Source: an uncultured Saprospiraceae bacterium (GTDB taxonomy: Bacteria > Bacteroidota > Bacteroidia > Chitinophagales > Saprospiraceae). Taken from it: 64,000 nt of DNA. The first letter of the stretch is position 1. Every line of letters starts with the position of its first letter. Below are positions 26,331-64,000 of the stretch, in pieces. The stretch covers positions 1 through 64,000 of the forward strand of contig CALDGQ010000041.1 in assembly GCA_937941765.1 (NCBI GenBank). Direction: 5' to 3'. Under the pieces are notes generated by a model that saw nothing but the letters and a program-made list of their open reading frames with translations, was not told the DNA's origin and searched no databases. The translations under genes and the position numbers were made by a program.

Positions 26331-26423
26331 ACACCCAACCCACACAAAAAAAACAAAAAAAACTTTCCCATTTTTATGGAATCCAACAATCTCGATCGTC
26401 TTATTATAAAAGACAATTTTATT

Positions 26424-26876
26424 ATGGGACAATCATTAGCAAAAGTTTATTTACATCTAGTATTCAGTACAAAGCATCGCCAACACCTGATCTTTCCACC
26501 TTTCGACAAAGATCTCTTTGCATATATGGCAGCAACTTGCAACGAATTTGATAGCCCAGCAGTACAAGTAGGTGGTTATTCAAATCACGTCCACATCTTG
26601 TGCAAGTTTTCAAGAAAAATTCCAATCATGACCTTACTGCAAAGAGTCAAATCTCATTCTTCAAAATGGATGAAAACAAATCATAATTATTTACAAGATT
26701 TTTTCTGGCAAGATGGGTACGCCGCTTTTTCCGTAGATTATCGAGGAGTCAAAGTAGTTCAAAAATATATTCTTAATCAACGCAAACACCATGGTGAAGA
26801 AACTTTCCAAGAAGAATTCAGAAGACTAATGACCGAACACGGAATCGAATGGGATGAAAAGTATGTTTGGGACTAA
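26424..26876 (+). CDS. Y1 (IS200-like / REP-associated) tyrosine transposase
   Basis: A 150-residue single-domain HUH nuclease of the TnpA_REP/IS200 type. Starting at ATG 26424 gives the typical MGQSLAKVYLHLVFSTKHR N-terminus. An upstream in-frame ATG at 26376 would add 16 unrelated residues and is not preferred. The HUH pair is seen in NHVHIL, and the C-terminal helix DGYAAFSVDYRGVKVVQKYI with NQRKHH carries candidate catalytic Tyr residues. Such enzymes nick single-stranded DNA at palindromic hairpins. The gene is framed by palindromes with GTCCTGAAGGGAC-like cores, supporting a RAYT-REP unit rather than a plain IS200, but an IS200 remnant is possible. Confidence 0.85.
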   Translation: MGQSLAKVYLHLVFSTKHRQHLIFPPFDKDLFAYMAATCNEFDSPAVQVGGYSNHVHILCKFSRKIPIMTLLQRVKSHSSKWMKTNHNYLQDFFWQDGYAAFSVDYRGVKVVQKYILNQRKHHGEETFQEEFRRLMTEHGIEWDEKYVWD

Positions 26877-32317: not shown

Positions 32318-32590
32318 CCAAGAGGTTGGAAACCTTTGGCTCGCGTAGGAGCATGTATGCACACGTACAGGATGCCGGTTTCCAACCGCTCATCTTGTGC
32401 AACTACTCATATCCCAAGAGGTCAGAAACCTTTGGCTCGCGTAGGAGCATGTATGCACACGTCCGAGATGCCGGTTTCCAACCGCTCATCTCGCCTCTCG
32501 ACCAAACATACGCCAAGAGGTTGGAAACCTTTGGCTCGCGTAGGAGCGTGTATGCACACGTCCGAGATGCCGGTTTCCAACCGATCCTAT
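32318..32590 (-). repeat. Hairpin repeat family A, locus 2, three tandem copies in reverse orientation
   Basis: Three units of 96-99 bp start near 32318, 32414 and 32513. Each holds hairpin 2 (AGGTTGGAAACCT), the linker CTCGCGTAGGAGC..TGTATGCACACG and hairpin 1 (CGAGATG-C-CGGTT-TCC-AACCG-CT-CATCTCG). In locus 1 the hairpin 1 base pair next to the loop-side bulge is A-T (CGAGATA/TATCTCG), and here it is G-C (CGAGATG/CATCTCG), a compensatory change. Within each unit GGTTGGAAACC and GGTTTCCAACC are also reverse complements of each other. Reading frames through this block are repeat-encoded. The rest of the gap to 32810 is AT-rich and empty. Confidence 0.88.
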
Positions 32591-49834: not shown

Positions 49835-50176
49835 AGGTAGTTTATCAAAGGTGCAAATTTAAGCCAAAAAATGAGTTAAAGCTGATAAATTGCACTTAAA
49901 TTGTTTCTCTTGCTGAATAAATCTAAGCAAATCATAAATTGAATCAAAGAGAAATAAAACGTTTGGCTTTATGATATATTTCAAAATGTTCACACACTCA
50001 TTCCAATTGAATCTTCAAGTAGCAAAGTGTAGTGCTTACTCATTTATTATCTGTATTAATTTTTTGTTAATAATGTCTTACTTACAACAGTATTAAAAAA
50101 ATACGACAACAATATTTTTGTCAAATGGGTTACCTATCTTTATCGTTATCTTTATAGTCTACAAAATTCCACAATA
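49835..50176. other. AT-rich divergent intergenic region between gldA and the DUF547 lipoprotein
   Basis: No supported gene is seen in these 342 bases. A 41-codon frame at 49971-50096 looks like chance. Candidate -7 elements near 50138-50156 (TATCTTTA, twice) face the DUF547 gene but lack a correctly spaced -33, so no promoter is called. Confidence 0.4.
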
Positions 50177-51367
50177 ATGAAAAAATCGTCATTCCTATTA
50201 ATTGGCTTTTTAGCAATCTTCTTTATTTCATGTGCTTCCGATAGTACCGATACTTCAACTATCAAAACACCAAAAGTTGAAACAACTGGTGTTGCAAATG
50301 AAGTTTCAAAAGTTCTAGTAGATAGTAAAGAAGCCATTGGTGCATCTGCGGACAATCTCATTCCTAGTGATGAAAAAGTGGATGAAACGGTTGATAAAGT
50401 TGCGGACAAATTGAAAGGAATTTTGAAGAAAGGAAAAAAAGAGGTCACAGAAGAAATCAAGAAAAAAGCGGAGGTTGTAACTAAGAAAGCTGATAAAGCA
50501 GTTGAAAATATTGCTAAAAAATCAGAAGAGATTGGTCAACAAATCGAAACGAAAATTGAAAAAGCTGCTACTCAAGTTGAAGAAAAAATCGATGTAGCCA
50601 TTGAGTCCATTCCGGAACCAACTGTTCCGCCTGCTGAAACAAAACCAGCTCCAAAACCAAAACCAGAACCGAAAATAACGCCAACTAAAGATATTGTCAC
50701 CAAAAAAGTGTGGGGCAAAAATGACAAACCAAATCATGATTATTTTGATGCGTTGTTACAAAAATATGTGTCCGGTGATGGTACCGTTAACTACAAAGGT
50801 TTCAAAGCGGATGATCATAAGTTGGAGGATTATTTAAGCCAATTAAAAAATAATCCAGTTCATCCTGATTGGTCAAGAAATGAAAAATTGGCGTACTGGA
50901 TTAATGCTTACAATGCTTTTACGATTAAATTAATTGTAGATAATTATCCGATCAAATCGATTACAAAATTGGAAGGTGGCAAACCATGGGATAAAAAATG
51001 GATAAAATTAGGTGATAAAACCTATTCACTTAACAATATCGAAAATGACATTATTCGTCCACAATTCAAGGAACCAAGAATTCATTTTGCAGTCAACTGT
51101 GCTGCCAAGTCTTGTCCGCCTTTAAGTAATGCTGTATGGACTGCTTCGAATTTGGAATCGAAATTTGAGAAGGCAACAAAGAAATTTATCAATAATAGTC
51201 GATACAATACAATTGATAAAAACAGTGCTTCTGTTTCAAAAATTTTCGATTGGTATAAAGAAGATTTTGGTGATCTAAGTGCTTACTTGAATAAGTATTC
51301 TGATACACAATTAAAAAAAGGTGGGAAAATTAAGTTTATGGAGTATGATTGGGGGTTGAATGAGTAA
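50177..51367 (+). CDS. DUF547 domain lipoprotein with helical coiled N-region
   Basis: A 396-residue lipoprotein (lipobox FFISC, Cys19). The mature N-terminal part (about 45-150) is a run of Lys/Glu/Ala/Val heptad-like helices, as in KLKGILKKGKKEVTEEIKKK and IETKIEKAATQVEEKIDV. A Pro-rich linker (VPPAETKPAPKPKPEPK) follows. The C-terminal DUF547 domain (about 185-390) holds LAYWINAYNAFTIKLI, IHFAVNCAAKSCPPL and FDWYKEDFG; the conserved Cys and His are in IHFAVNCAAKSCP. DUF547 function is unestablished. The helical repeat region suggests envelope spanning or lipid contact. Confidence 0.85.
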   Translation: MKKSSFLLIGFLAIFFISCASDSTDTSTIKTPKVETTGVANEVSKVLVDSKEAIGASADNLIPSDEKVDETVDKVADKLKGILKKGKKEVTEEIKKKAEVVTKKADKAVENIAKKSEEIGQQIETKIEKAATQVEEKIDVAIESIPEPTVPPAETKPAPKPKPEPKITPTKDIVTKKVWGKNDKPNHDYFDALLQKYVSGDGTVNYKGFKADDHKLEDYLSQLKNNPVHPDWSRNEKLAYWINAYNAFTIKLIVDNYPIKSITKLEGGKPWDKKWIKLGDKTYSLNNIENDIIRPQFKEPRIHFAVNCAAKSCPPLSNAVWTASNLESKFEKATKKFINNSRYNTIDKNSASVSKIFDWYKEDFGDLSAYLNKYSDTQLKKGGKIKFMEYDWGLNE

Positions 51368-51379
51368 CGTGAATTAGTG

Positions 51380-51589
51380 CGACCTCTCTGAGGTCGAAAA
51401 CGAATAATTGACATTATTCTAATGTAGTATAACCGCTCTGCGGTTATTAAATTCTTTAAATAAAACTTTGTGTTACCAATCAGATCAAGTCGTTGCTAAT
51501 GCCAAAAACAAATTTTCGGATGAGACCACAGAGTGGTCCTACTTTGTCAGATTAATATTTAATTGGGTCATCCGACCCTAGCAGGGTCG
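51380..51589. repeat. Cluster of four short REP-like hairpins
   Basis: Four perfect short palindromes of one design (6-7 bp stem, 3-base loop) lie within 210 bp: CGACCTC-TCT-GAGGTCG (51380-51396), AACCGC-TCT-GCGGTT (51431-51445), GACCAC-AGA-GTGGTC (51524-51538) and CGACCCT-AGC-AGGGTCG (51573-51589). A fifth, CCCCT-CA-AGGGG, is at 51662-51673. They fill the gap between two genes. Confidence 0.75.
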
Positions 51590-51712
51590 AATTACTTTGC
51601 TATAAAACGCCAATAAATTGAATTAATGCATTAGCAATCAATGAGTGTTTCACCTCTAAATCCCCTCAAGGGGAACAGTATTTATTCAACCTTAAAGAAA
51701 AACTACCTAATA

Positions 51713-52195
51713 ATGAAACATTATACTTACATAATATTTCTTAGTTTATTCTACTGCAGTTGTAACACTGAACCTACAAATTCAACAAATAATTTATCAA
51801 CAAATCAAACGTCAATTTCATCATCCGCTATCCTAATTTTCAAAAAAGAAAAACAGCTAGAAATTTGGAATGATGGAGCTAAAATAAATACCTATCCAAT
51901 CAATTTAGATTCAAAATTTCCAATAGGTGAATTTGAAGCAACTAATTCTAAAAAAGGAATTAAGATTCATTTTCCAAATCAATTTTATAAAGAAAAAAGC
52001 TACCAAATAGATTTTGATCCCATAATTAAGGTGACAAAAAATGAATTTATCGAAATAGATTTAACAAATATTCCTATCCTAGTCTTTCCAAATGATGCAA
52101 GAAATGGACAATCCTTTGTCGCCAGTTTTTCAAGTCCGCATTGGATGTGTGAAATATATGCTAAAATGAACCTGTATTTGCTAGAATACAATTAA
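51713..52195 (+). CDS. Small lipoprotein, possibly related to YkuD-like domain N-region
   Basis: A 160-residue protein from ATG 51713 (MKHYTYIIFLSLFYCSCNTEP). The frame extends upstream to 51641 but the extra residues come from palindromic non-coding sequence. A lipoprotein signal is likely (Cys15 or Cys17), followed by a Ser/Thr/Asn-rich linker. The sequence ILIFKKEKQLEIWNDGAKIN then PIGEFEATNSK vaguely resembles the start of L,D-transpeptidase (YkuD) domains, but the catalytic HxxxSHGC part is absent. It may be unrelated. Function unknown. Confidence 0.6.
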   Translation: MKHYTYIIFLSLFYCSCNTEPTNSTNNLSTNQTSISSSAILIFKKEKQLEIWNDGAKINTYPINLDSKFPIGEFEATNSKKGIKIHFPNQFYKEKSYQIDFDPIIKVTKNEFIEIDLTNIPILVFPNDARNGQSFVASFSSPHWMCEIYAKMNLYLLEYN

Positions 52196-52238
52196 TGTTC
52201 TAAATTGAGAAGGCTAATTAAACTTCATAAAAGCTAGC

Positions 52239-54164
52239 ATGACACAAATGCGCAAACTATTATTTCTTCTCTTACTTTTTTCCGCAAATAATTTGTTGGC
52301 ACAACAGCCGTTTGTCTGCAATGGTGATTATTATCTGACCTCCACTGCTGGAAATACAACTGTTTATAAAGTTGAGATTGATATCAATGGAGATGCTACT
52401 TTTAATGCGCTTCCGAATACAGTTGGGTTGGTTGTCAATGCGATTGGTTATCGGACAGCAGACAATTTTATTTATTCTATCAATACCAATAATAATGATT
52501 TGTATAGAATTGATGCCAGTGGAGATGGGACTTTTATCGACAATTTAGATCTGCCGAATTCTCATAATTTTTATGGCGCAGATTTTACGGCTGATGGAAA
52601 ATTTATGGTATTCATTGGAACTAGTATCTTTGCTGGAAGTAATTTGTTAGCATTTGTTGATTTTGAAGCTGGTGGATTTCCAGTGACATTGGTCAATCTT
52701 TCCAATGCTGGTAACACACAAGTTACAGATATCGCGTTTAATCCGATTACCAACCTTTTGTATGGATATGATAGTGACAATGATCGCATGATAGTGATTG
52801 ACCCAGACACTGGAGAAATGACAACTGGTTTTCCTGGCAATCAAGTTGCTCCACGAATTGGTGCAGTATTTTTTGATTCGTTTGGTGGACTATATGGCTA
52901 CGGTGGTCCTAATGGTAGTGTGTTATACGAAATCGATCCAGAAACTGGAATTGTTGCTATTGCTGCCAATGGACCAAGTTCATCCAACAAGGATGGTTGC
53001 TCATGTCCGTATACTGTTAGATTAAATAAATTGGTAGAACCATTGGAAACAACTCCTTGTACTGAGGTTACTTATTATTTCGCGATTGCCAATGTTTCTT
53101 CTGTGACTCAAACTGGTGTTACATTGGAAGATCAATTGCCACCTGATTTATTGATAACAGAAATTATTAGCAATCCTTATGGAGGAACTGTTGTTAGTGG
53201 GGTCAACACAGATTTGCTTTCCATATCAGATATGGTGATTCCTCCAGGATTTGATACGCTTGCTATTAAAGTGGAAGTAAGTGAAGATGCCGTAGGTATT
53301 TATAAAAATCAAGCTCGTTTAGAAAATGTGCCTTTATTGTTAAGTCAAGCTATGGTTTCTGACAATCCGTTGACAAGTGCAACAAATGATTCAACGGTAC
53401 TAAATGTTGTTGGTCTTAATGAACCACTTTCCATTAATGAATATGGCATTTGTTTTTCTGAAACTTTGACGTTGCAATCGGATCAAGTTGCAACGGATTA
53501 TTTATGGAATACTGGTGAGACCACTTCATCTATTGAAGTAACAGAAGCTGGATATTATTGGTTGGATATTTCAAATAGTTGTCAAACCATACGAGATTCA
53601 TTTAAAGTGGTAGTATCAGATGAATTCTTTGTTTTTCTTCCAAATGATGTGACGATAGATTTGGGCGAAACGGTATTTGTAAATGTCAATGAAACTTCAT
53701 CCAATCCTGTCACCTATTTATGGACCGAATCAGGTGATGACTCCATTTTGAATTGTACGGATTGTGAAAGCCAAACAATAATGCCACTACGTGATGTTAT
53801 GTTACATATGGAAGTGCGTGATATTTATGATTGCGTTGCTACTGATTCTATGTTCATCCAAGTAATTCCGAATTACAATATATATGTCCCAAATATTTTC
53901 AGCCCAAATCAAGATGGTTATAATGATATCTTTTCCGTATTTGGAACGGAAGGAACGAAGGTTAATGTATTTCGTATTTTTGACCGTTGGGGATCTTTAT
54001 TGCATGAATCTTATGATGGATTTGTAAATTCCACAGATCATGGATGGGATGGTGTTTATAAAGGACAATTATTAAATGATGCTGTTTTTGCTTGGTATGC
54101 AGAAGTTGAATTTTTGGATGGTGAAATAAAATTATTAAAAGGAGATATAACTTTGATTAGATGA
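52239..54164 (+). CDS. Secreted protein with T9SS type B (gliding-motility-associated) C-terminal domain
   Basis: A 641-residue exported protein with a signal peptide ending near NNLLAQQ. Residues about 30-260 look like a propeller of the lactonase/NHL sort (repeats such as TDIAFNPITNLLYGYDSDNDR and FFDSFGGLYGYGG). A DUF11-like conserved-repeat domain follows (EVTYYFAIANVSSVTQTGVTLEDQLPPD), and another beta domain precedes the type B sorting domain (NIYVPNIFSPNQDGYNDIFSVF... to ...KGDITLIR). It is likely a T9SS-exported surface protein. An alternative start is ATG 52248. Its stop overlaps the next gene by 4 bp, an unusual link with a metabolic enzyme. Confidence 0.87.
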   Translation: MTQMRKLLFLLLLFSANNLLAQQPFVCNGDYYLTSTAGNTTVYKVEIDINGDATFNALPNTVGLVVNAIGYRTADNFIYSINTNNNDLYRIDASGDGTFIDNLDLPNSHNFYGADFTADGKFMVFIGTSIFAGSNLLAFVDFEAGGFPVTLVNLSNAGNTQVTDIAFNPITNLLYGYDSDNDRMIVIDPDTGEMTTGFPGNQVAPRIGAVFFDSFGGLYGYGGPNGSVLYEIDPETGIVAIAANGPSSSNKDGCSCPYTVRLNKLVEPLETTPCTEVTYYFAIANVSSVTQTGVTLEDQLPPDLLITEIISNPYGGTVVSGVNTDLLSISDMVIPPGFDTLAIKVEVSEDAVGIYKNQARLENVPLLLSQAMVSDNPLTSATNDSTVLNVVGLNEPLSINEYGICFSETLTLQSDQVATDYLWNTGETTSSIEVTEAGYYWLDISNSCQTIRDSFKVVVSDEFFVFLPNDVTIDLGETVFVNVNETSSNPVTYLWTESGDDSILNCTDCESQTIMPLRDVMLHMEVRDIYDCVATDSMFIQVIPNYNIYVPNIFSPNQDGYNDIFSVFGTEGTKVNVFRIFDRWGSLLHESYDGFVNSTDHGWDGVYKGQLLNDAVFAWYAEVEFLDGEIKLLKGDITLIR

Positions 54165-55123
54165 TAGAAATTGTTGTACTTGATGGTTTTACCATGAATC
54201 CAGGTGATCTTTCATGGGAAGAATTGGAAAAATTAGGAAAACTAACAGTATATGAACGTACCTTACCTGAAGATGTTTTAGAACGTTCGAAAAATGCCAC
54301 GGTCATCATTACCAATAAAGTTGTATTTACAAAAGATATTATCAAAGAGCTGCCATTGCTTCAACTAATTGCTGTCGCAGCAACCGGTTATAATTCAATC
54401 GACATCAAAGGTGCAGCTAAATTTGGAGTCAAAGTTTGCAATGTTGTCGGTTATGCGGCACCTTCCGTTGCACAACATGTATTTGCACAAATCCTTAGAA
54501 TCAGAAATGATATTCACCTACACAATTTAGCAGTACAAGAAAAAAAATGGAGTCAAAATCCTGATTGGTCTTTTACCGAAAAAAAAATAACCGAGCTGTC
54601 TGGCCAAACAATGGGTATTTACGGACTTGGTAAAATTGGAACAAAAGTCGCTGAAATCGCTTTGGCTTTTGGAATGAAAGTCGTTGCAACTAGAAAAGAT
54701 AAAAGCAAGCCTAAACCTGAAAGTGTCAAATTAGTGGAGTTTGAAAAACTATTGCAGTATAGTGATGTACTTTCTTTGCATGCGCCGCTTTCTGAAGAAA
54801 ATAAAGAGATTTTTAATGAGACTAATTTAGCCATGATGAAGTCTTCTGCCATCCTTGTCAACACCGGTCGTGGTGGATTAATTAATGAAGCAGATTTAAA
54901 ATGGGCTTTAGAAAACAATAAGATTGCATATGCTGCACTAGATGTTTTGTCTGAAGAACCACCACCTGAAGACCATCCATTATTCGGAATTGACAATTGT
55001 ATCATAACACCACATATGGCATGGGCTAGTTTTGAATCTCGCAAACGATTGCTGCATGGTGTGGTTGGGAATGTTTGGTCTTATTTGGACAAACCTAATG
55101 ATTTTGAGGGTATTACAATTTAA
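54161..55123 (+). CDS. D-2-hydroxyacid dehydrogenase (glycerate/hydroxypyruvate reductase-like)
   Basis: A 320-residue NAD(P)-dependent enzyme of the 2-hydroxyacid dehydrogenase family. The Rossmann motif GIYGLGKIG lies near 150. Catalytic residues are visible: Arg in LVNTGRGGLINE, Glu in LDVLSEEPPPEDHPL, and His in ITPHMAWAS. The VAATGYNSIDI and SVAQHVFAQIL segments fit glycerate dehydrogenase (HprA) better than lactate or phosphoglycerate dehydrogenase. The ATG overlaps the stop of the T9SS protein gene (ATGA). The substrate is inferred. Confidence 0.88.
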   Translation: MIEIVVLDGFTMNPGDLSWEELEKLGKLTVYERTLPEDVLERSKNATVIITNKVVFTKDIIKELPLLQLIAVAATGYNSIDIKGAAKFGVKVCNVVGYAAPSVAQHVFAQILRIRNDIHLHNLAVQEKKWSQNPDWSFTEKKITELSGQTMGIYGLGKIGTKVAEIALAFGMKVVATRKDKSKPKPESVKLVEFEKLLQYSDVLSLHAPLSEENKEIFNETNLAMMKSSAILVNTGRGGLINEADLKWALENNKIAYAALDVLSEEPPPEDHPLFGIDNCIITPHMAWASFESRKRLLHGVVGNVWSYLDKPNDFEGITI

Positions 55124-55775
55124 ACTTACCAATAATATCAAATCTACAATCTAGGGATATTCAATGAGCGTTGCCCATTTTTAGTACTTCAGTTCCGTTG
55201 GAGTTTTTTAGAACTTAACAACTCTACCCCATTGGGGTAAAACGTTTTTCTTTGATTTAATATGGGATATTCAGGAGTAGCAAATTCCGACTTAGAAATC
55301 ATTTTGAATGCACAAAATATGCCTTTCATTTAAACTGAATAATCATCAATATCCATGCTTTCTCAATTGTGATTTTTCGAAGAATCTGATTCTTTTTCTT
55401 TTTTCATTGGATTTGGTTGGCAAAGAGGTTTAATGGAATAAGCCGTTTCACGGTTCACTTCAATAAAATGTCCTCTAGGACTTTTGATTTCGTTCATGTC
55501 AAACATATAAAATCGGCCTCCCGCTACAAAATCCAATTTTATGTTTATTTGAAGTGAATTTGCAACAATTTGAATACGTCGTTGAATTTTAACTTAATCA
55601 CCCCGTTTTTTAGGGATTCTACATATAATTGATGCAATTATCCAAAAGAGGCTACAACCTAATTCATTGGTTATCATAATTTTAGATTACTTCTGAATAT
55701 CCCTTCTATGATATATTGTTGTTAAAAAAGTTAAACATTTTGTTTTTAGCATTTTGAACACGCTATACTAAGCCT
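55124..55775. other. Non-coding region with hairpins, inverted-repeat borders and a small open frame
   Basis: This 652-bp stretch has no clear gene. It contains a perfect short hairpin TACCCC-ATT-GGGGTA (55225-55239), an imperfect ACTTCA/TGGAGT stem upstream of it, and matching inverted copies of GGGATATTCAG at 55264-55274 and 55693-55703 (with the following AGTA). A third, partial copy is at about 55153. A small reading frame between the inverted copies is listed separately. Confidence 0.5.
55363..55506 (-). CDS. Small open reading frame of uncertain status
   Basis: A 47-codon frame starting MFDMNEIKSPRGHFIEVN and ending in a charged tail (KKEKESDSSKNHN). The frame is open upstream without a stop for about 30 more codons (sequence like IKLDFVAGGRFY) but has no upstream ATG, so it may be a remnant of a longer gene. 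Amino-acid content looks protein-like. It lies between the inverted repeats bordering 55264-55703. Confidence 0.3.
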   Translation of the reverse strand: MFDMNEIKSPRGHFIEVNRETAYSIKPLCQPNPMKKEKESDSSKNHN

Positions 55776-57329
55776 CTAATTCACTTTTTCAAATTCTGAT
55801 GTCCTTCCTCGTTGAATTAATTTAGCACTTATAATGTTATCATTCTCATCTTTTTCAAATTCAACCGTTATAGTTGGATTAAAAGCATAATAAAAACGAG
55901 TTTCAGTTTCTGGAAATATAGCGAGTGGATTCCCATTATTACGTTGTGAATGAAGTACTCCGTCTTTTAAGAAAAATTTTCGATTGACACCATCCCCAAC
56001 GTAATTGCCACAAAATTTATTTAACTTTTTATTTGATAATTTGAAAACCCCATTTTTCATTTTATAGACGTCTTTCAAATCACCATTTATATCATAAAAT
56101 TTCCAACTACCTGTTTTCAAATTATCTTTATATAAACCTTGACTTGACACTTTACCATTTTCAAAATAGGTACGGGCAATGCCATTTCGCTTTCCATTTT
56201 TAAGTGCATATTCGGTTTTTAGAACACCGGATTCATAGTATTCCCTTTTGAGTTGCCCAGAATCCAAATTAACATCATCACATTTAAAAACACCAAATCC
56301 AACACCATATGCACTTCCGCTATCGAAAAATTGAAAATTATTAAATCCATCACCGATATCATTATACGGATTCCAAGTTTTTCCTCCATCACGAGTCTCA
56401 TAAGTTTTGCCTCGAGTTCCACCCATATATCCAATTTGCGTATTAGCAAACCCAATTCCTTGCACATAGTAATAATCCTCTGAATGTTCTACTTCTCTCC
56501 AATTTTTGCCTCCATCATTGGTTTGCAAATGATAAAATCGACCTTCCTCTACATTTCGTTGGATAGAAATAAAACCAATTTCTTTTGATGGAAAAGAAAA
56601 TTTCCACGGATACTCTCCTATTTGTTTTGATAAATATTTTGTATCCCAAGTAGTTCCTCCATCTACCGTTTCCAAAACCATCGATCGACAATTTTCTTTA
56701 TCTCTTGTGGTTCCTCCAATTAAAAACCCATGCGTTTCATCAAAAAAATGAGTAGCAATTAAACTTCCTGCGATATGGTCTAAATTCTGCGAATACCATG
56801 TTAAACCACCATCTGTTGTTTTAATAAAATAGGAAGGACCACGGACACGACCACACCCTACAATAAAATCATCCGTCACTTTTTGCAAGCCACACAATCC
56901 TTTTGGTGTCGGTCCAATGAATTCTACTGGTGCCCAATTTTTGCCACCATCTTTCGTTTCATAGAGAGCGATCGTATCTCTGGAACCTAAAAATGGATCA
57001 TCTGTTCCAATTGTTCCCAACCATCCTTCTTCTCTGTTTTTGAAGGTAATGCATCTGAAAAAAGTACCTGGATTTTCATGAATGATTTCCCAAGTTTCAC
57101 CACCATCTTCCGTTAGGGAAACATAACCACTACTAATTATAACCATCCCAGTATCCTCATCAAAAAAGTGTAGATCGTCGGTACGACCATTTGTTACTGG
57201 ATAGCTGGTGAGTTTTTCCCAAGCAGTGCTGTATCTAATTTCTTGAATTGATTTTAGTTGTGGATATATTTTTGGGGTGCAACTTGTTACAACACAAATT
57301 AGAGATAAAAAAAGAAGGTTTCGAAACAT
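55776..57329 (-). CDS. Lipoprotein with Ycf48/BNR-like propeller and MORN-type repeats
   Basis: A 517-residue lipoprotein (lipobox VVTSC, Cys17). The first 345 residues are a beta-propeller of Ycf48/sialidase Asp-box-like repeats, each with T.DGG.TW: LTEDGGETWEII, ETKDGGKNWAPV, KTTDGGLTWYSQ, ETVDGGTTWDTK, QTNDGGKNWREV and ETRDGGKTWNPY. Then come MORN-like toggles (LKREYYESGVLKTEYALKNG, ARTYFENGKVSSQGLYKDN) and a C-terminal region ending EFEKVN. It probably sits in the outer membrane. The propeller may bind ligands or other proteins. The fusion is unusual, and the function is unknown. Confidence 0.8.
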   Translation of the reverse strand: MFRNLLFLSLICVVTSCTPKIYPQLKSIQEIRYSTAWEKLTSYPVTNGRTDDLHFFDEDTGMVIISSGYVSLTEDGGETWEIIHENPGTFFRCITFKNREEGWLGTIGTDDPFLGSRDTIALYETKDGGKNWAPVEFIGPTPKGLCGLQKVTDDFIVGCGRVRGPSYFIKTTDGGLTWYSQNLDHIAGSLIATHFFDETHGFLIGGTTRDKENCRSMVLETVDGGTTWDTKYLSKQIGEYPWKFSFPSKEIGFISIQRNVEEGRFYHLQTNDGGKNWREVEHSEDYYYVQGIGFANTQIGYMGGTRGKTYETRDGGKTWNPYNDIGDGFNNFQFFDSGSAYGVGFGVFKCDDVNLDSGQLKREYYESGVLKTEYALKNGKRNGIARTYFENGKVSSQGLYKDNLKTGSWKFYDINGDLKDVYKMKNGVFKLSNKKLNKFCGNYVGDGVNRKFFLKDGVLHSQRNNGNPLAIFPETETRFYYAFNPTITVEFEKDENDNIISAKLIQRGRTSEFEKVN

Positions 57330-57387
57330 GTAAATGATTATAAATAATTTTAAATTGAATCTTGGTATTTATGGACCTGTAATAACG

Positions 57388-57481
57388 AATTTTTTCCGAA
57401 TTTTTCATTGACGATTCAATGGAACATGTTCCATTGGGCTGCCGTGCAGTAGGTCGTCCAAATATAAATTCGGAAAAAATT
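57388..57481. repeat. Nested inverted repeat predicted to fold as a three-way junction
   Basis: Outer arms AATTTTTTCCGAATTT (57388-57403) and AAATTCGGAAAAAATT (57466-57481) are exact complements. Inside, GACGA (57410-57414) pairs with TCGTC (57454-57458). Within that stem sit two hairpins: the perfect palindrome CAATGGAACA/TGTTCCATTG (57417-57436) and CTGC-CGT-GCAG (57439-57449). The right arm overlaps the last base of the giant gene's stop codon. This may act as a transcription terminator between the two minus-strand genes, but the second hairpin and junction are unusual for one. Confidence 0.8.
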
Positions 57482-60400
57482 TACCTAATTACCGTAATAT
57501 CTCCTTTATAAAAAACGCCATCTACTCTCTCTCCGCAATAGGTCACATCCATCCTTATCCACCATACGTGCACACCAGGCCTGAATTGCCCTTCTTGCAA
57601 CGTGCCATCCCAACCATCATTGATATCAGTTGAGAAATACTCTTCTTCTCCCCAGCGATCAAAAACATGAATTTCATAACTATGTATTTTCACATAGTCG
57701 GCAGGTGTGACGATAAATTTATCATTGATACCATCACCATTTGGTGAAAAAACATTGGGTACATACAAGAAGTTACTTATCTCACTGACACCAGGAAATA
57801 CAATTACCTCAAATGTTTTGTCTTCACAAATATTACTCGCTTGTAATAAATAAGTACCCGGAGCATAGGCAAAGAATGAACTTCCTGTTGTTCCATCTGG
57901 CCAAGTATAAGTAAGATCAATGTTAGGTCCCGTAATTAATTCTGCTGACAATTCTACCGAATCAATATCACAAGTCATTGTGGTTCCATTCGCAAATACA
58001 TTGAGTCGATCATAGACAGGAATCGTCGCTGGCAATTCTTTAACACAACCATTAATATCTTGGACATAAATCATATGTTCACCTGGATCTAGATTATTAA
58101 ATTCATTTTCAGTCTGATAATTCACTCCATCCAAAGAAAACAAAAATGGATTGGTGACACCTTGCAGATTACTAATTTCAATATTTCCAGCTTCGTCATA
58201 ACAAATTATTTCCGATTCATAAGCAAAATCAAAATCCGGAGAGGCTGCTACACTCAACTGAATCGTAGAGTCACATCCTTGCCAACTGGTGTAACTAAAC
58301 GTTTCTAAAGTTCCAGATTCATATTCCTGATTATTGAAGATATAGGTTTCATTTGGACAAACTTGAACATCTAATGCAATTGGCTGTGCACCCATTTCTG
58401 TCACCGCTACTTGCTCTGTAGAATCACAACCTGAGAAACTTTCATAAGCAATTACTTGAAAAGAGTTGGGATACAAATAAGCGCCATTGTAATAAACAGA
58501 ATCTCCCGTACAAGCAAACAACTCAACTTCATTAACCGACAACGGAATGGGTACTGCAGATACGAAAACAAAGGAATCACATCCTGCTACATTTGTCAAG
58601 TCAAATTTAAAGGTCTCACCGGATTCTATCTCGACGCCATTATATTCTAACATTTCTCCTTCGCAAATTTCAAATTCCAAATTCGCAGAAGTAGGTGTCA
58701 ACATTTCAACAAATACCACCTCCGTTGAGTCACATCCATTGATGGTTGTCATTTCAAATGCATAGGAATCTCCAGCGGCAATTTGTTGGCCATTATATTC
58801 GTAAAAATCTTCAAAACATGCTTCAAAGTATAGATTGTCTGCATAATTCGGATAAGGAGCTACCGTGACAGTAACAGTTGAGTCACATCCCGATGCTGCT
58901 TTTAACACTACTTCTACGACTTCATTCGAATTCAAAATAACGTCATGATAATCCATCGTTTCACCAGGGCATAAGTTGAAATTTTCAACACCAAATTGTT
59001 CCGTACAAGGTTGTCTCACCAACCAATTGACTTCTTCTATATCATCACATCCTACCAAACCGGTTTGTTGCACAGATTCCACTACCACCCATTCAACTGG
59101 TAGTCCTAAACTATCGAAATAAAGGGTGTAATCTACTGCAAATATATCTTCGAACACATACGCGCCCATACTGTTAGTAGTAACGGCATCGCTATAACTG
59201 ACTCCTTCTATGAAAATCGTTTGATTGCTCATTAAAGTATCAGGACCATCGATTATACCATTGTCATTGACATCAAAATAGACTTCTCCAACAATATCTC
59301 CTGTTCCAATAAATAAATCCAAACTCATCACCCCAGAAGTCGCTTCACATCCAAATTCATCCAACATTTCAACATAATAATCTCCACTTTCCAATGCGAC
59401 TACTTCTTGTTGAGTACCTTCAGGTGCTGGAATTGCAACGTCATTAAAAAACCATTGCCAACTGACGATACCAGGCATCGTAGGCAAACATAAAGTATCT
59501 GGTGCACATCTTTTATGACAACCCGATGGAATTCGATTGATATCTGGCCCTTTGTGAATTTCAATTTCATTGGAAGTGGTTTCACAACCATTCTCATTGA
59601 ATGCACGGACATAGTAGACACCAGGAATATCAACAATAATGGCGGTTGCATCAATGGTTCCAGTATTCCAAATGTAGGTTAGATTCGGATCATAATTCGA
59701 AATAGAAATGGTAGCTGGTTGGTTATCACAAATAAATCCATCAGGATCTGAAACCAATAATATATCTTCAGGATTTGCATTTACGAGTACGGTATAAGGT
59801 CCCGCAATACTTGTACATCCTGTTTCTGAATCAACGATGGTAACATCAAAAATGTAAGTACCCGCTTCTAATAAATTATCTCGTTCAATCGAATATTCAA
59901 TTGTGGTTCCGGCTTGTCCAGTATTCCATGCATATTCATAACCTTCTACTTCGTTGACTTCCATGAACACTTCTTCTCCTTCACAGATAGTATAACTATC
60001 ATAAAAAAAGCTGATTGGCTGATCGTATTCATCATATTCCACAACTCTTATTTCTCCTGAAGGCAATGGTAAAATATCTAAAACAACTTCTGGAGTAGTA
60101 TAAGTACATCCATTTTCATCCGATATTGTAACATCATACACACCTGCTTCTGTAGCCGAAATACTTGGAGTCGTTTCATCCGTTGACCAAGCATAGGTAA
60201 ATGGTCCACTTGGAGCTGACATAATGGTGGTTTGCCCTTCACATATTGGTGAACCAGGGACCATTGAAATGTTTCCTGATAAATTATTTTGTTGAATCGA
60301 TACTTGTTGCGTAAAGGTAGCTTCACAACCATAAATTGTTTGTGCTGTTAAAGTGATCGTATACATCCCTGGATTTCCATACTCATGATAAGTATTCATC

Positions 60401-63400
60401 ACTTCGGATGTGTTGGCATCACCACTACCTGGATCTCCAAAATCCCAAAATACATCGGTTACCGTTGGACCTACATTAGCAACAAAGTCTAATGGAAAGT
60501 TTTCACAATCTTCGTCCGGCAAATCGAAAGAAGGTGTCGGTGGATCTTGAATAACAATAGATTTTGTAATATCTGTTTCACATCCATTCGGACCGGTAAT
60601 CAATAAATTCACCTCATAAGTACCTGCAGTGTTATAAAAATGCACGGGATCTTGCAATGTAGATGTATTGTTGATTCCACTTGCTGGATCTCCAAAATCC
60701 CAAGTCCAAGAGGCTACACTTTGGCCAGGAACAAAAGTGGATAGGTCTTCAAATTCGATAGCTGAATCAACGCAATTTGACAAAACATGAAAATCTGGAG
60801 AAACTGGAATCATATCCAACTTTCCTAAACCACATCTTTCTACCACACCATTTGTGAGATGATCACAAATCATAACGACAAAATAAAATCCAGAACGTTC
60901 AAATTCATAGTTCGTATTTTCACCGGTTGATGTACCTTCCACATCTGGAAAACCAAAGAACCATTCTGTGGTACCTGGCACCAAATTAGGTGAGGTATTT
61001 TGAAACTTGTGTCTTTCACATCTATTGGTATTTTCAATATCGAAAGTAGACACAACTCCTTGACATTGCAACTCTACAGGTGGACCACCACCACCGCCGC
61101 AACTATAAAGGACATTCAAAATATTGGATTCACCAACACATCCATACTCATTAATCGCTTCTACTTTATAGGCGCCACTTTCTGTATTCGGCGGTGTATA
61201 AAGCGACATGGTTGCTCCTGGAATCAACACATTATTACGATACCATTGATATTGATAAGGTGGATCAGATTCCAGTGCATATAATGTTGGAACTGGGAAA
61301 GCAGGAGGACAATAAGTTAGTAAATTTGGTGATGAAATCTCAACTGTTGGGGTTGGCAATGTTTCAATTTCAAATATCGTGTTACCAATACATCCCTTAT
61401 CATCTGTTACAATTAATTCATAATTTCCAGGACCTAAATTAGGTGATGGAAGATTTGAGATGAGGACTCCATTGGTATCTCTCCATTCATAAGCGGAGAA
61501 TGGCCAAGTACTTGCCACTACTCCTGTTGCTCCTGGACAAAGTGCAACTGGCTGGTTAACCAATGGCTCAGGAGCTGGATTGACAATTACATTATAGGTA
61601 TCTGCATTTCCACAGGCATTCATTTGCACAATTGCACTACCGGCTGTATGCCAGAAAACTTCAATTGCATTGGTTTGTTGCCCCTCAATAATCGTAGCTG
61701 CCGTTTCTGGCATAACACTCCAAACGTAATCCACATTTGGATATGAAGTGGCTGTAAATACTGAAGTTGTTTCGATACAATGATCTTGTTGACCCAGAAT
61801 GACGATATCATTGATTTTTGTCAAATTCATGGTTATCGATTCAGATTCACATGCTGCATCTGAATTTTCAATTTGATAAACAGACAAAGAATACGGACCG
61901 GCACTATTCCAAGTGACATTGAGATAGGCACCACCTGAGCTAGCTATTACTCCACCGTCATTGACCTCCCACGCAAAAGAAGTGTTGGATTCTGAAGAAT
62001 TTGCTTGGTAAGTATAAGTATCTCCTATGCAAATTTGAGATTCACCATCAATACTTAAAACCGGTGGTGGAATGTCTAATAAATTAACAAAAGCACTATA
62101 AGTGTCAGAACAAAATATAGCAGCGTTTGGAGGAGTGGCAGTTACTGTATAAAAACCAAGTGCACCTGGCAAGGTTATATCAAAAGATGCACTAGGACCT
62201 CCAGTAAATATAATGCTACCAGCAGGATCTTTAACTTGCCAATTCACCGTCGCTGGTCCACCTGTCAATCGTTCTGCTGTATAAGTTCCTGTTTCATTCA
62301 AGCACAACTCAATTGGACCAGAGAAAAAGTACTCGTCCAAGATATTTACTGCTAATTGATCAGAACCACCACATTCTAAATAACAATTATCATACGTGAC
62401 TCGTACCCATTGAGGTGTTGTTGGAATTGCTAAATCTGTCCATTGAATACTGACCGAATTTGTTCCCTGACCTTTTACAATTTCTCCATATGAAGATACC
62501 TCCCAGAAGAATTCTGTACCACCATAATTGGTAATGGTATATACTTGCAAATCTCCTTTACAAACATTTGTTACTCCTTTTATATCATCATCATTTCCTA
62601 TAATTGGAATTTGGGAGATATTTTCAAAAATGCAATAATTTTCGGTACAACCAGCAACGGCTAACGCAATCGTTCCTAGCGGACCACTTCCCCATTCTAT
62701 TGTTATATAATCATCTGAACTGCCGCCTCCATCAACAATAACTCCATCTCCTGTAATTATCCAAGTATAATTGGAACAATCCGCATCCGTGGTGTACGTT
62801 ACTTCTGTATTTTCACAAACAGTTCCTACACAATCCAATTTTGGAATAATCGCTTGCTCTACATTGACATTGATAGAAGTTGTATCTGAGCAAAGACATT
62901 CATTTCGAGCAATCAGTTGCACCAAATAAGAACCTGGGGTTTCATAGGTAAACTCAGTTGTGATACCACTGTCATTTTCTCCATTTCCAAAATCCCAGAT
63001 ATGGGTTTCTGCATTGATACTCTGAGATTCAAAATAAACGGTTTGACCAGCACAGATATTGACATCTCCGCTTTCAGGTTCAGGGATAGTTGAGATAATA
63101 GCTTCTGTTTCTTCTAATATATCTATGCAAAGTGAAGATTCAAAAGCTGGAGTAGAATTCATACAAGTGACATTGAAATCATAAATGCATTGAGCATTTC
63201 CAGTAATATCACTAACAGTAACAGTATATACACCACTACATAAATTCTGGTTAAAAGGTAATGTGTTTCCGTTGGACCATGTGAAAAACAAATTTTCATA
63301 ATTAGAAAAATTGATTTGTCCATCACAGGCGTCACATTCAGTCTCGTTAATCACATTTGATGACAGTTCCTCAAAAGGATCACTTAGATCAACTACTTCA

Positions 63401-64000
63401 TAAAAGGAACAGTTATTTTTACTATAATAAATGTAGTACACGCCAGCAACCAAATTTGTATTCTCTAAAGAATTACTTGAAAAGCCAAAGGGTCCAGTAA
63501 TTGTTACATTTCCTGTTCCCATGAAATCAAATACATAGAGCGATCCTAATTCACCGCAAAATGGCAGCTCGTAAGAAACTCCAACTTCTTCGCATCCAAA
63601 TCCGCACTGGATTGTAAAACTTTCAACAACTGTACAACCGTTTGCATCTGTCACATAAAGTGTATAAATCCCTCCATTAAGAAATTCTCGATTTCCTCCG
63701 CCACTGAAACCATCAGACCATTCATAAGAATATGGTGGACTTCCACCTGAAACAGAAGTATAAATCGAGCCGTTTCCATCCATACAATCTTCTGAGTCGT
63801 TCACTTCTCCAATTATTTCTAGATCATTACAAACTGAGAATTCAAAAATCTCTGCATGGAAACAGCCGACATCATCAACCACCTCAAAAGTTAAAGGCTC
63901 GTAAATATTAGTACTAGTAAAACTCGAACCTGTACCTAACAAGGTGCCTGCTGCGCTATACCAAGAATAAATATATGGAGGCGTTCCTCCTGTAATAATG
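57481..64000 (-). CDS. Giant secreted adhesin-like protein with T9SS type B C-terminal domain (partial; runs off the right edge)
   Basis: At least 2172 residues are present, and the N-terminus lies beyond base 64000; the frame stays open to the edge, so an apparent start at 63942 is not real. The protein is Cys-rich, extracellular and built from many repeats. SprB-like units (GGSPPYSYEWSDG, VTDANGC), PKD-like domains (HIWDFGNGENDSG, WTWDFGDPASG, WDFGDPGSG) and a series of about six C-terminal-half repeats with CDSTVTVTV / ASGCDST motifs are visible. It ends in the type B sorting domain (VPNVFSPNGDGINDKFIVT... to ...YKGDITVIR). It is a surface protein or adhesin exported by T9SS. Confidence 0.9.
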   Translation of the reverse strand, partial: IITGGTPPYIYSWYSAAGTLLGTGSSFTSTNIYEPLTFEVVDDVGCFHAEIFEFSVCNDLEIIGEVNDSEDCMDGNGSIYTSVSGGSPPYSYEWSDGFSGGGNREFLNGGIYTLYVTDANGCTVVESFTIQCGFGCEEVGVSYELPFCGELGSLYVFDFMGTGNVTITGPFGFSSNSLENTNLVAGVYYIYYSKNNCSFYEVVDLSDPFEELSSNVINETECDACDGQINFSNYENLFFTWSNGNTLPFNQNLCSGVYTVTVSDITGNAQCIYDFNVTCMNSTPAFESSLCIDILEETEAIISTIPEPESGDVNICAGQTVYFESQSINAETHIWDFGNGENDSGITTEFTYETPGSYLVQLIARNECLCSDTTSINVNVEQAIIPKLDCVGTVCENTEVTYTTDADCSNYTWIITGDGVIVDGGGSSDDYITIEWGSGPLGTIALAVAGCTENYCIFENISQIPIIGNDDDIKGVTNVCKGDLQVYTITNYGGTEFFWEVSSYGEIVKGQGTNSVSIQWTDLAIPTTPQWVRVTYDNCYLECGGSDQLAVNILDEYFFSGPIELCLNETGTYTAERLTGGPATVNWQVKDPAGSIIFTGGPSASFDITLPGALGFYTVTATPPNAAIFCSDTYSAFVNLLDIPPPVLSIDGESQICIGDTYTYQANSSESNTSFAWEVNDGGVIASSGGAYLNVTWNSAGPYSLSVYQIENSDAACESESITMNLTKINDIVILGQQDHCIETTSVFTATSYPNVDYVWSVMPETAATIIEGQQTNAIEVFWHTAGSAIVQMNACGNADTYNVIVNPAPEPLVNQPVALCPGATGVVASTWPFSAYEWRDTNGVLISNLPSPNLGPGNYELIVTDDKGCIGNTIFEIETLPTPTVEISSPNLLTYCPPAFPVPTLYALESDPPYQYQWYRNNVLIPGATMSLYTPPNTESGAYKVEAINEYGCVGESNILNVLYSCGGGGGPPVELQCQGVVSTFDIENTNRCERHKFQNTSPNLVPGTTEWFFGFPDVEGTSTGENTNYEFERSGFYFVVMICDHLTNGVVERCGLGKLDMIPVSPDFHVLSNCVDSAIEFEDLSTFVPGQSVASWTWDFGDPASGINNTSTLQDPVHFYNTAGTYEVNLLITGPNGCETDITKSIVIQDPPTPSFDLPDEDCENFPLDFVANVGPTVTDVFWDFGDPGSGDANTSEVMNTYHEYGNPGMYTITLTAQTIYGCEATFTQQVSIQQNNLSGNISMVPGSPICEGQTTIMSAPSGPFTYAWSTDETTPSISATEAGVYDVTISDENGCTYTTPEVVLDILPLPSGEIRVVEYDEYDQPISFFYDSYTICEGEEVFMEVNEVEGYEYAWNTGQAGTTIEYSIERDNLLEAGTYIFDVTIVDSETGCTSIAGPYTVLVNANPEDILLVSDPDGFICDNQPATISISNYDPNLTYIWNTGTIDATAIIVDIPGVYYVRAFNENGCETTSNEIEIHKGPDINRIPSGCHKRCAPDTLCLPTMPGIVSWQWFFNDVAIPAPEGTQQEVVALESGDYYVEMLDEFGCEATSGVMSLDLFIGTGDIVGEVYFDVNDNGIIDGPDTLMSNQTIFIEGVSYSDAVTTNSMGAYVFEDIFAVDYTLYFDSLGLPVEWVVVESVQQTGLVGCDDIEEVNWLVRQPCTEQFGVENFNLCPGETMDYHDVILNSNEVVEVVLKAASGCDSTVTVTVAPYPNYADNLYFEACFEDFYEYNGQQIAAGDSYAFEMTTINGCDSTEVVFVEMLTPTSANLEFEICEGEMLEYNGVEIESGETFKFDLTNVAGCDSFVFVSAVPIPLSVNEVELFACTGDSVYYNGAYLYPNSFQVIAYESFSGCDSTEQVAVTEMGAQPIALDVQVCPNETYIFNNQEYESGTLETFSYTSWQGCDSTIQLSVAASPDFDFAYESEIICYDEAGNIEISNLQGVTNPFLFSLDGVNYQTENEFNNLDPGEHMIYVQDINGCVKELPATIPVYDRLNVFANGTTMTCDIDSVELSAELITGPNIDLTYTWPDGTTGSSFFAYAPGTYLLQASNICEDKTFEVIVFPGVSEISNFLYVPNVFSPNGDGINDKFIVTPADYVKIHSYEIHVFDRWGEEEYFSTDINDGWDGTLQEGQFRPGVHVWWIRMDVTYCGERVDGVFYKGDITVIR

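Follow-up and report, generated by a model that had tools for sequence, protein, structure and literature searches.

The branched element at positions 57388-57481 of the window (the whole 64,000-nt stretch of uncultured Saprospiraceae DNA analysed here) is most likely a small mobile-type repeat enclosed by a longer inverted repeat; a new regulatory RNA is the less likely reading. More specifically, it probably combines a REP-like palindrome, belonging to a divergent RAYT-like (Y1 HUH) transposase clade, with a surrounding inverted repeat that is specific to this locus. The palindrome type accompanies this clade in Saprospiraceae and other Chitinophagales. With constant edges (CAA-N-GG), varying middles and a likely enzyme nearby, such palindromes make the question of shape versus sequence recognition directly testable, and some of them lie in frame inside methyltransferase genes. 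Reading the element as a REP-like palindrome also strikes one candidate "new RNA" from the list.

The sequence-only reading had described a nested inverted repeat with an exact 16-bp outer stem, an inner GACGA/TCGTC stem and two hairpins, and both the sequence and its folding confirmed this description. The arms of the outer stem, AATTTTTTCCGAATTT (57388-57403) and AAATTCGGAAAAAATT (57466-57481), pair exactly over 16 bp, stand 62 nt apart and are locus-specific. The window contains a single exact 16-bp inverted repeat with arms 8-140 nt apart, and 60 dinucleotide-shuffled windows contained none. The inner stem is formed by GACGATT (57410-57416) and GGTCGTC (57452-57458), the exact GACGA/TCGTC pairing being followed by two U-G pairs in the RNA fold. 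Hairpin 1 (57417-57436), the REP-like core, is a perfect 20-nt palindrome, CAATGGAACATGTTCCATTG, with 8-bp arms and a CATG loop, and hairpin 2 (57438-57450, plus strand) reads GCTGC-CGT-GCAGT. Folded as plus-strand RNA, the element reached -37.9 kcal/mol (z -6.94), and as minus-strand RNA, the coding strand of both neighbouring genes, -32.7 kcal/mol (z -4.32); as single-stranded DNA it gave z -7.20. None of 200 shuffles was equally stable in any of the three cases. The proposed three-way junction is therefore real as a fold, but the 52 nt inside the outer stem, when folded alone, were weakly exceptional (z -2.42; 4 of 200 shuffles as good). The clover-like form is thus due mainly to the palindrome and the outer stem. 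The full architecture of outer stem, inner stem and two hairpins was found at one site, that of the window.

As had been stated earlier, the element begins at the stop codon of a giant gene and lies between two same-strand genes. The giant gene (57481-63942, minus strand, open to the window end) encodes a PKD/SprB/CHU_C protein with a type IX secretion signal, and its TAA stop (57483-57481) has one base in common with the outer stem, the last base of the right arm. The downstream neighbour (55776-57329, minus strand) encodes a 517-aa YCF48/BNR and MORN protein. The palindrome itself is intergenic. We used the DNA of 50000-64000 to locate the orthologous site in a same-genus sister species (G001), which is collinear with the window at 74-76% DNA identity over three long stretches. 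In the one ortholog compared, on contig C195 of G001, the giant-gene counterpart has the same end point and no comparable fold behind it, which makes a conserved processing signal unlikely. The gene beyond the giant gene differs in G001 too, the 517-aa protein having no match there at E 1e-30, and the site is thus not a clean empty one; neither an insertion event nor a target-site duplication was caught at the window site in this comparison.

Copies of the palindrome were then sought in the window's own genome (G000), a 6.25-Mb draft that is 81.6% complete. The draft holds one exact copy of the 20-mer, one match with two mismatches and two with three mismatches, the last two being coding in appearance as judged by eye. 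The two-mismatch match, a near copy on contig C19, shares TGACGATTCAATGGAACAT with the window element at the left arm of the inner stem, and its right arm differs yet stays complementary; it is placed right where a gene begins, its 53 nt fold with z -3.20, and its orthologous interval in G001 has no palindrome. When the whole of G000 was searched at E 0.001, the matches elsewhere covered the core only. In genome_contigs, which may lack entries very close to the window's genome, the exact 20-mer was present at 19 sites on 18 stretches, of which 13 bear the title Saprospiraceae and 5 Chitinophagales; 18 of the 19 sites, in the 18 fetched loci, lay outside ORFs of at least 150 aa. The exact 20-mer had no occurrence in viral_contigs, and the plasmid collection gave no match at E 0.01. 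A DNA search with the whole element in 148 relatives (E 1) gave, among the matches listed, nine at E<=0.002 besides the window, all on the palindrome, together with weaker ones that were short and scattered. The orthologous site thus shows no conserved pairing, whereas related copies of the core are present elsewhere, namely the near copy in G000 and those on the 18 stretches; the earlier proposal had been made to depend on both points. Two orthologous-looking site pairs across MAGs (L079/L094 and L082/L084) keep the palindrome in both members, which suggests that some copies are old and counts against rapid movement. As a separate candidate, words of the inner stem and loop were considered as repeated feet in G000 and rejected: 10 of the 15 were no commoner than the reversed word and five were somewhat commoner.

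The enzyme side of the association is represented by P0003, a 205-aa Y1 transposase-like protein of G001, which passed the Pfam Y1_Tnp model (27.6 bits; cut-off 23) and fell below the cut-off of the NCBIfam RAYT model (31.2 bits; cut-off 80). Homologues at E 1e-15 were present in 12 of 198 relatives, including the window's own genome, whose homologue is 53% identical, and 10 of these 12 genomes had a single match. DHVH and Tyr168 were invariant in an alignment of seven stand-alone proteins, Tyr168 presumably being the catalytic residue of the clade, and all seven carried Y---NR instead of the RAYT signature Y---NP. The clade profile matched eight chains of solved structures, all of them transposases and none named RAYT; the best was 2f4f (E 1e-6), and the ISHp608 transposase was matched at E 3.6e-4. 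In G000, the frame of the transposase homologue (L050 1492-2040, contig C12) continues into a CCCGTTGAACC hairpin adjoining a tRNA-His gene, and two more inverted pairs of CCCGTTGAACC wording occur on contigs C44 and C110. The window also encodes a separate 166-aa IS200-like Y1 protein (26376-26876, plus strand), which scored above its NCBIfam cut-off and has a YILNQRKHH motif similar to the published subclass 1.2 signature.

To describe the palindromes near these genes, we used the pattern CAA-N-GG(8)CC-N-TTG with perfect 8-nt arms, which was written once the sequences beside stand-alone genes had been viewed at six loci as well as in the window's own genome. Pattern palindromes were found at 11 of 13 transposase-like loci of the same order, all 11 in other genomes. 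Altogether, the 13 loci held 23 of them in about 44 kb, four lying more than 1 kb from the gene. By comparison, the sampled sequence of G000 contained three in 1,228,093 bases, the window's own among them, and that of G001 none in 338,497 bases, and six control words occurred 0 or 1 times over both samples. The two transposase loci without the perfect pattern were in G001, which has an 18-nt version, and in the window's own genome, where the hairpins are too long for the pattern. In G001, the 18-mer core lies 61 bp behind the P0003 gene; a closing stem of 8 bp there also encloses a second hairpin, and the junction fold is weak (z -1.22 on one strand, with 25 of 200 shuffles as good, and -2.72 on the other). 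Different hairpins occupy the counterpart of this interval in G000. The hairpins flanking the transposase homologue of G000 are longer and of other wording, with the edges CAACGG...CCGTTG, that is CAA-N-GG...CC-N-TTG. The middles of the palindromes at transposase loci vary (GTCATGAC, AACATGTT, GTTTTAAC, GCTGAAGC), and the pairing of their arms was required by the pattern.

A narrower pattern, CAAKGGRWCATGWYCCMTTG, allowed the association to be counted by genome. It was present in 7 of the 12 transposase genomes (E 1e-15) and in 2 of the 186 others (Fisher 1.3e-8, kinship ignored), and was thus absent from five genomes with the transposase and present in two without it. Counted off the transposase contig, the proportions were 6 of 12 versus 2 of 186 (Fisher 3.2e-7), 5 of 11 versus 2 of 186 after exclusion of the window's own genome (3.9e-6), and 4 of 10 versus 2 of 186 after exclusion of G090 as well (5.0e-5), kinship again being ignored in all three.

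A Y1 HUH transposase-like domain also occurs in frame within Eco57I/PglX-like DNA methyltransferases, at seven loci in six genomes: L053 (G193), L054 (G073), L055 and L064 (G134), L058/L088 (G090), L062 (G161) and L091 (MAG-187). In every case the embedded domain is placed between an SLID..(V/I)AG.KAF.W..E stretch and the GF(D/N)VVIGNPPY motif. Our literature search, with most subscription papers outside its reach, returned no paper on the palindrome or on a transposase domain in PglX-like methyltransferases. Embedded domains account for six of the 13 transposase loci, and each of these six domains contains a palindrome. The palindrome of the G090 domain, an exact 20-mer in frame, was already known when the pattern was drawn up; the five domains unseen at that time (L053, L054, L055, L062 and L064) all have a palindrome inside. 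MAG-187 has two exact 20-mers near a 1243-aa methyltransferase gene in which a transposase domain is embedded, one 49 bp behind the gene and the other 147 bp ahead of it. The latter also follows a neighbouring ORF at a distance of 121 bp, and the ends of this ORF and of the 1243-aa gene share 84% identity over 269 bp.

The nesting of the palindrome in the outer stem is real but exceptional. Flank pairing at 44 palindrome sites (L054:3485 was left out for its short flank) averaged -17.2 kcal/mol for true pairs versus -16.1 for swapped ones. The values were -17.7 versus -15.1 kcal/mol at the 23 sites with the window core or a near version of it and -16.8 versus -17.7 at the 21 sites at transposase loci, where true pairs were slightly worse. 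Stems of at least 12 bp occurred at 2 of the 44 sites (16 bp in the window and 23 bp at L083) compared with 8 of 1892 swapped pairs, where the maximum was also 23 bp; related flanks of some sites may account for these long stems in swapped pairs. The idea of a general nesting of such palindromes in long stems was rejected on the basis of this flank swapping. Since long outer stems are not a property of the family, the transposase model leaves the window's outer stem unexplained.

Inverted repeats as such are common in the genome: 77 exact ones of at least 14 bp with a loop of at least 8 were counted in 1.23 Mb of G000 (stretches L095-L154 and the window). Several families among them have repeated arms and differing loops (for example, ATGTATGATATGAC...). 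In 52 loops of 11-60 nt, purine-pyrimidine alternation was 0.563 versus 0.469 in the genome and CpG 0.063 versus 0.026, loops of the same family not being independent. Within the window, the 14-bp inverted pair AGAGGTTGGAAACC / GGTTTCCAACCGCT recurs several times at 32321-32529, in an ORF whose translation looks like a repeated peptide.

We propose that the palindrome would have arrived as single-stranded hairpin DNA handled by a transposase of this clade, by analogy with what has been proposed for REPs. It may have landed in, or become enclosed by, an inverted repeat or hairpin loop; the core (57410-57458) now sits in the loop of the 16-bp inverted repeat right behind the adhesin stop codon. 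If transcribed, the element would be a passive 3' hairpin, possibly slowing 3' decay or read-through. A much broader interpretation, which we put forward only tentatively and regard as unlikely, is that Chitinophagales possess an undescribed REP-type system: a Y---NR--H Y1 HUH clade, often within methyltransferases, whose cognate 20-nt palindromes would settle in hairpin loops, whether of terminator stems or of other inverted repeats, and give rise to branched compound elements like the present one at gene ends. At L083 (5475-5575), a related palindrome lies in a 23-bp perfect stem that is followed by T7, which would fit a landing in the loop of a terminator.

Three other explanations were weighed against the nested REP-like palindrome. 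The strongest, although itself rather improbable, is a 3'-end RNA structure selected by the host, such as a terminator, a read-through attenuator or an mRNA-stabilising hairpin of the adhesin transcript. The position at a stop codon between same-strand genes and the stable fold of the coding strand are what such a structure would predict, and the stem and T7 of the L083 relative resemble an intrinsic terminator. However, no T-tract flanks the element on either side, a terminator scan of 57200-57700 found none, and an Rfam covariance-model scan of the window gave no family at the gathering score. Together with the G001 ortholog, whose gene end has no comparable fold, these results speak against a conserved form of the structured RNA or processing site that had been suggested earlier. 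That suggestion had named a mobile palindrome as its third option, and this is the one now favoured by the co-occurrence with the transposase and by the absence from the G001 site.

The two remaining explanations appear still less probable, to about the same degree. One takes the perfect palindrome, GGAACATGTTCC, as an operator, a candidate binding site of a dimeric regulator. Its perfect symmetry over 20 nt, its location mostly outside reading frames at the exact sites and the near copy at a gene start would fit a binding site, but the window site is behind a gene, copies occur in frame inside the transposase gene, and the middle letters vary at transposase loci, although arm pairing there was required by the pattern. 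The other regards the element as a decayed MITE, with the outer stem as its terminal repeats and the palindrome inside by accident. A genome so rich in inverted repeats, several with repeated arms, makes such an origin conceivable; against it, the window's outer arms are not shared by any of the 76 further inverted repeats listed for the 1.23-Mb sample, in which the arm had six loose, A/T-rich matches when two mismatches were allowed, and elsewhere in the whole genome the core alone was matched. Our preferred reading thus remains a REP-like palindrome within an inverted repeat of this locus, and it can be compared with several known systems.

Like intrinsic terminators, the element is a strong stem-loop behind a stop codon, but it differs from them in having no U-tract and in its 62-nt branched loop. 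The clade resembles IS200/IS605 elements and their non-autonomous derivatives in its Y1_Tnp domain, in its solved relatives, which are transposases, and in the hairpins near the gene; in contrast with them, it has one match per genome in most of its genomes, and no conserved ends or cleavage site were recognised here. A further comparison is with TnpA-Y1 subclass 2.4, which corresponds to Bertels group 4 and is found in Cyanobacteria and Bacteroidetes (PMC6006769). As in this subclass, the HuH, W and Y motifs stand in the same order with N at Y+4, and the embedded members and that of G001 have a variable palindrome-bearing insert between HuH and Y. However, the clade has DHVH rather than NH[IFV]H, W-x-Q rather than WQ and Y-I-x-x-N-R-x-K-H rather than YIxNNP (in all seven stand-alone proteins).

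The general likeness is to REPs and REPINs with their TnpA-REP (RAYT) transposases and to REPtrons (PMC6006769, PMC3733652, PMC8266576), in that short, mostly intergenic palindromes, some of them inside genes, stand beside Y1 HUH transposase genes. One of these sources reports that REPs between ORFs of the same direction tend to lie near the upstream ORF's 3' end (PMC3733652), and another treats REP spread and the recognition of perfect palindromes by the transposase as open (PMC8266576). The present palindromes differ from REPs and REPINs in their tags, in their number and in their form. Within 20 nt of the palindromes, neither GT[AG]G (6 of 90 flanks, compared with 7.0 after shuffling) nor CGTC (1 of 90 versus 3.3) was enriched, and GGGG was somewhat enriched (5 of 90 versus 1.3). 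Counted by the pattern used, there were 0-24 palindromes per genome among the 198 relatives. In form, the window's core is a perfect 20-nt palindrome of the type CAA-N-GG...CC-N-TTG, enclosed by an unrelated 16-bp stem. Because both tag and copy number were tested and differed from those of REPs, we do not file the element as a canonical REP; even so, it may work like one.
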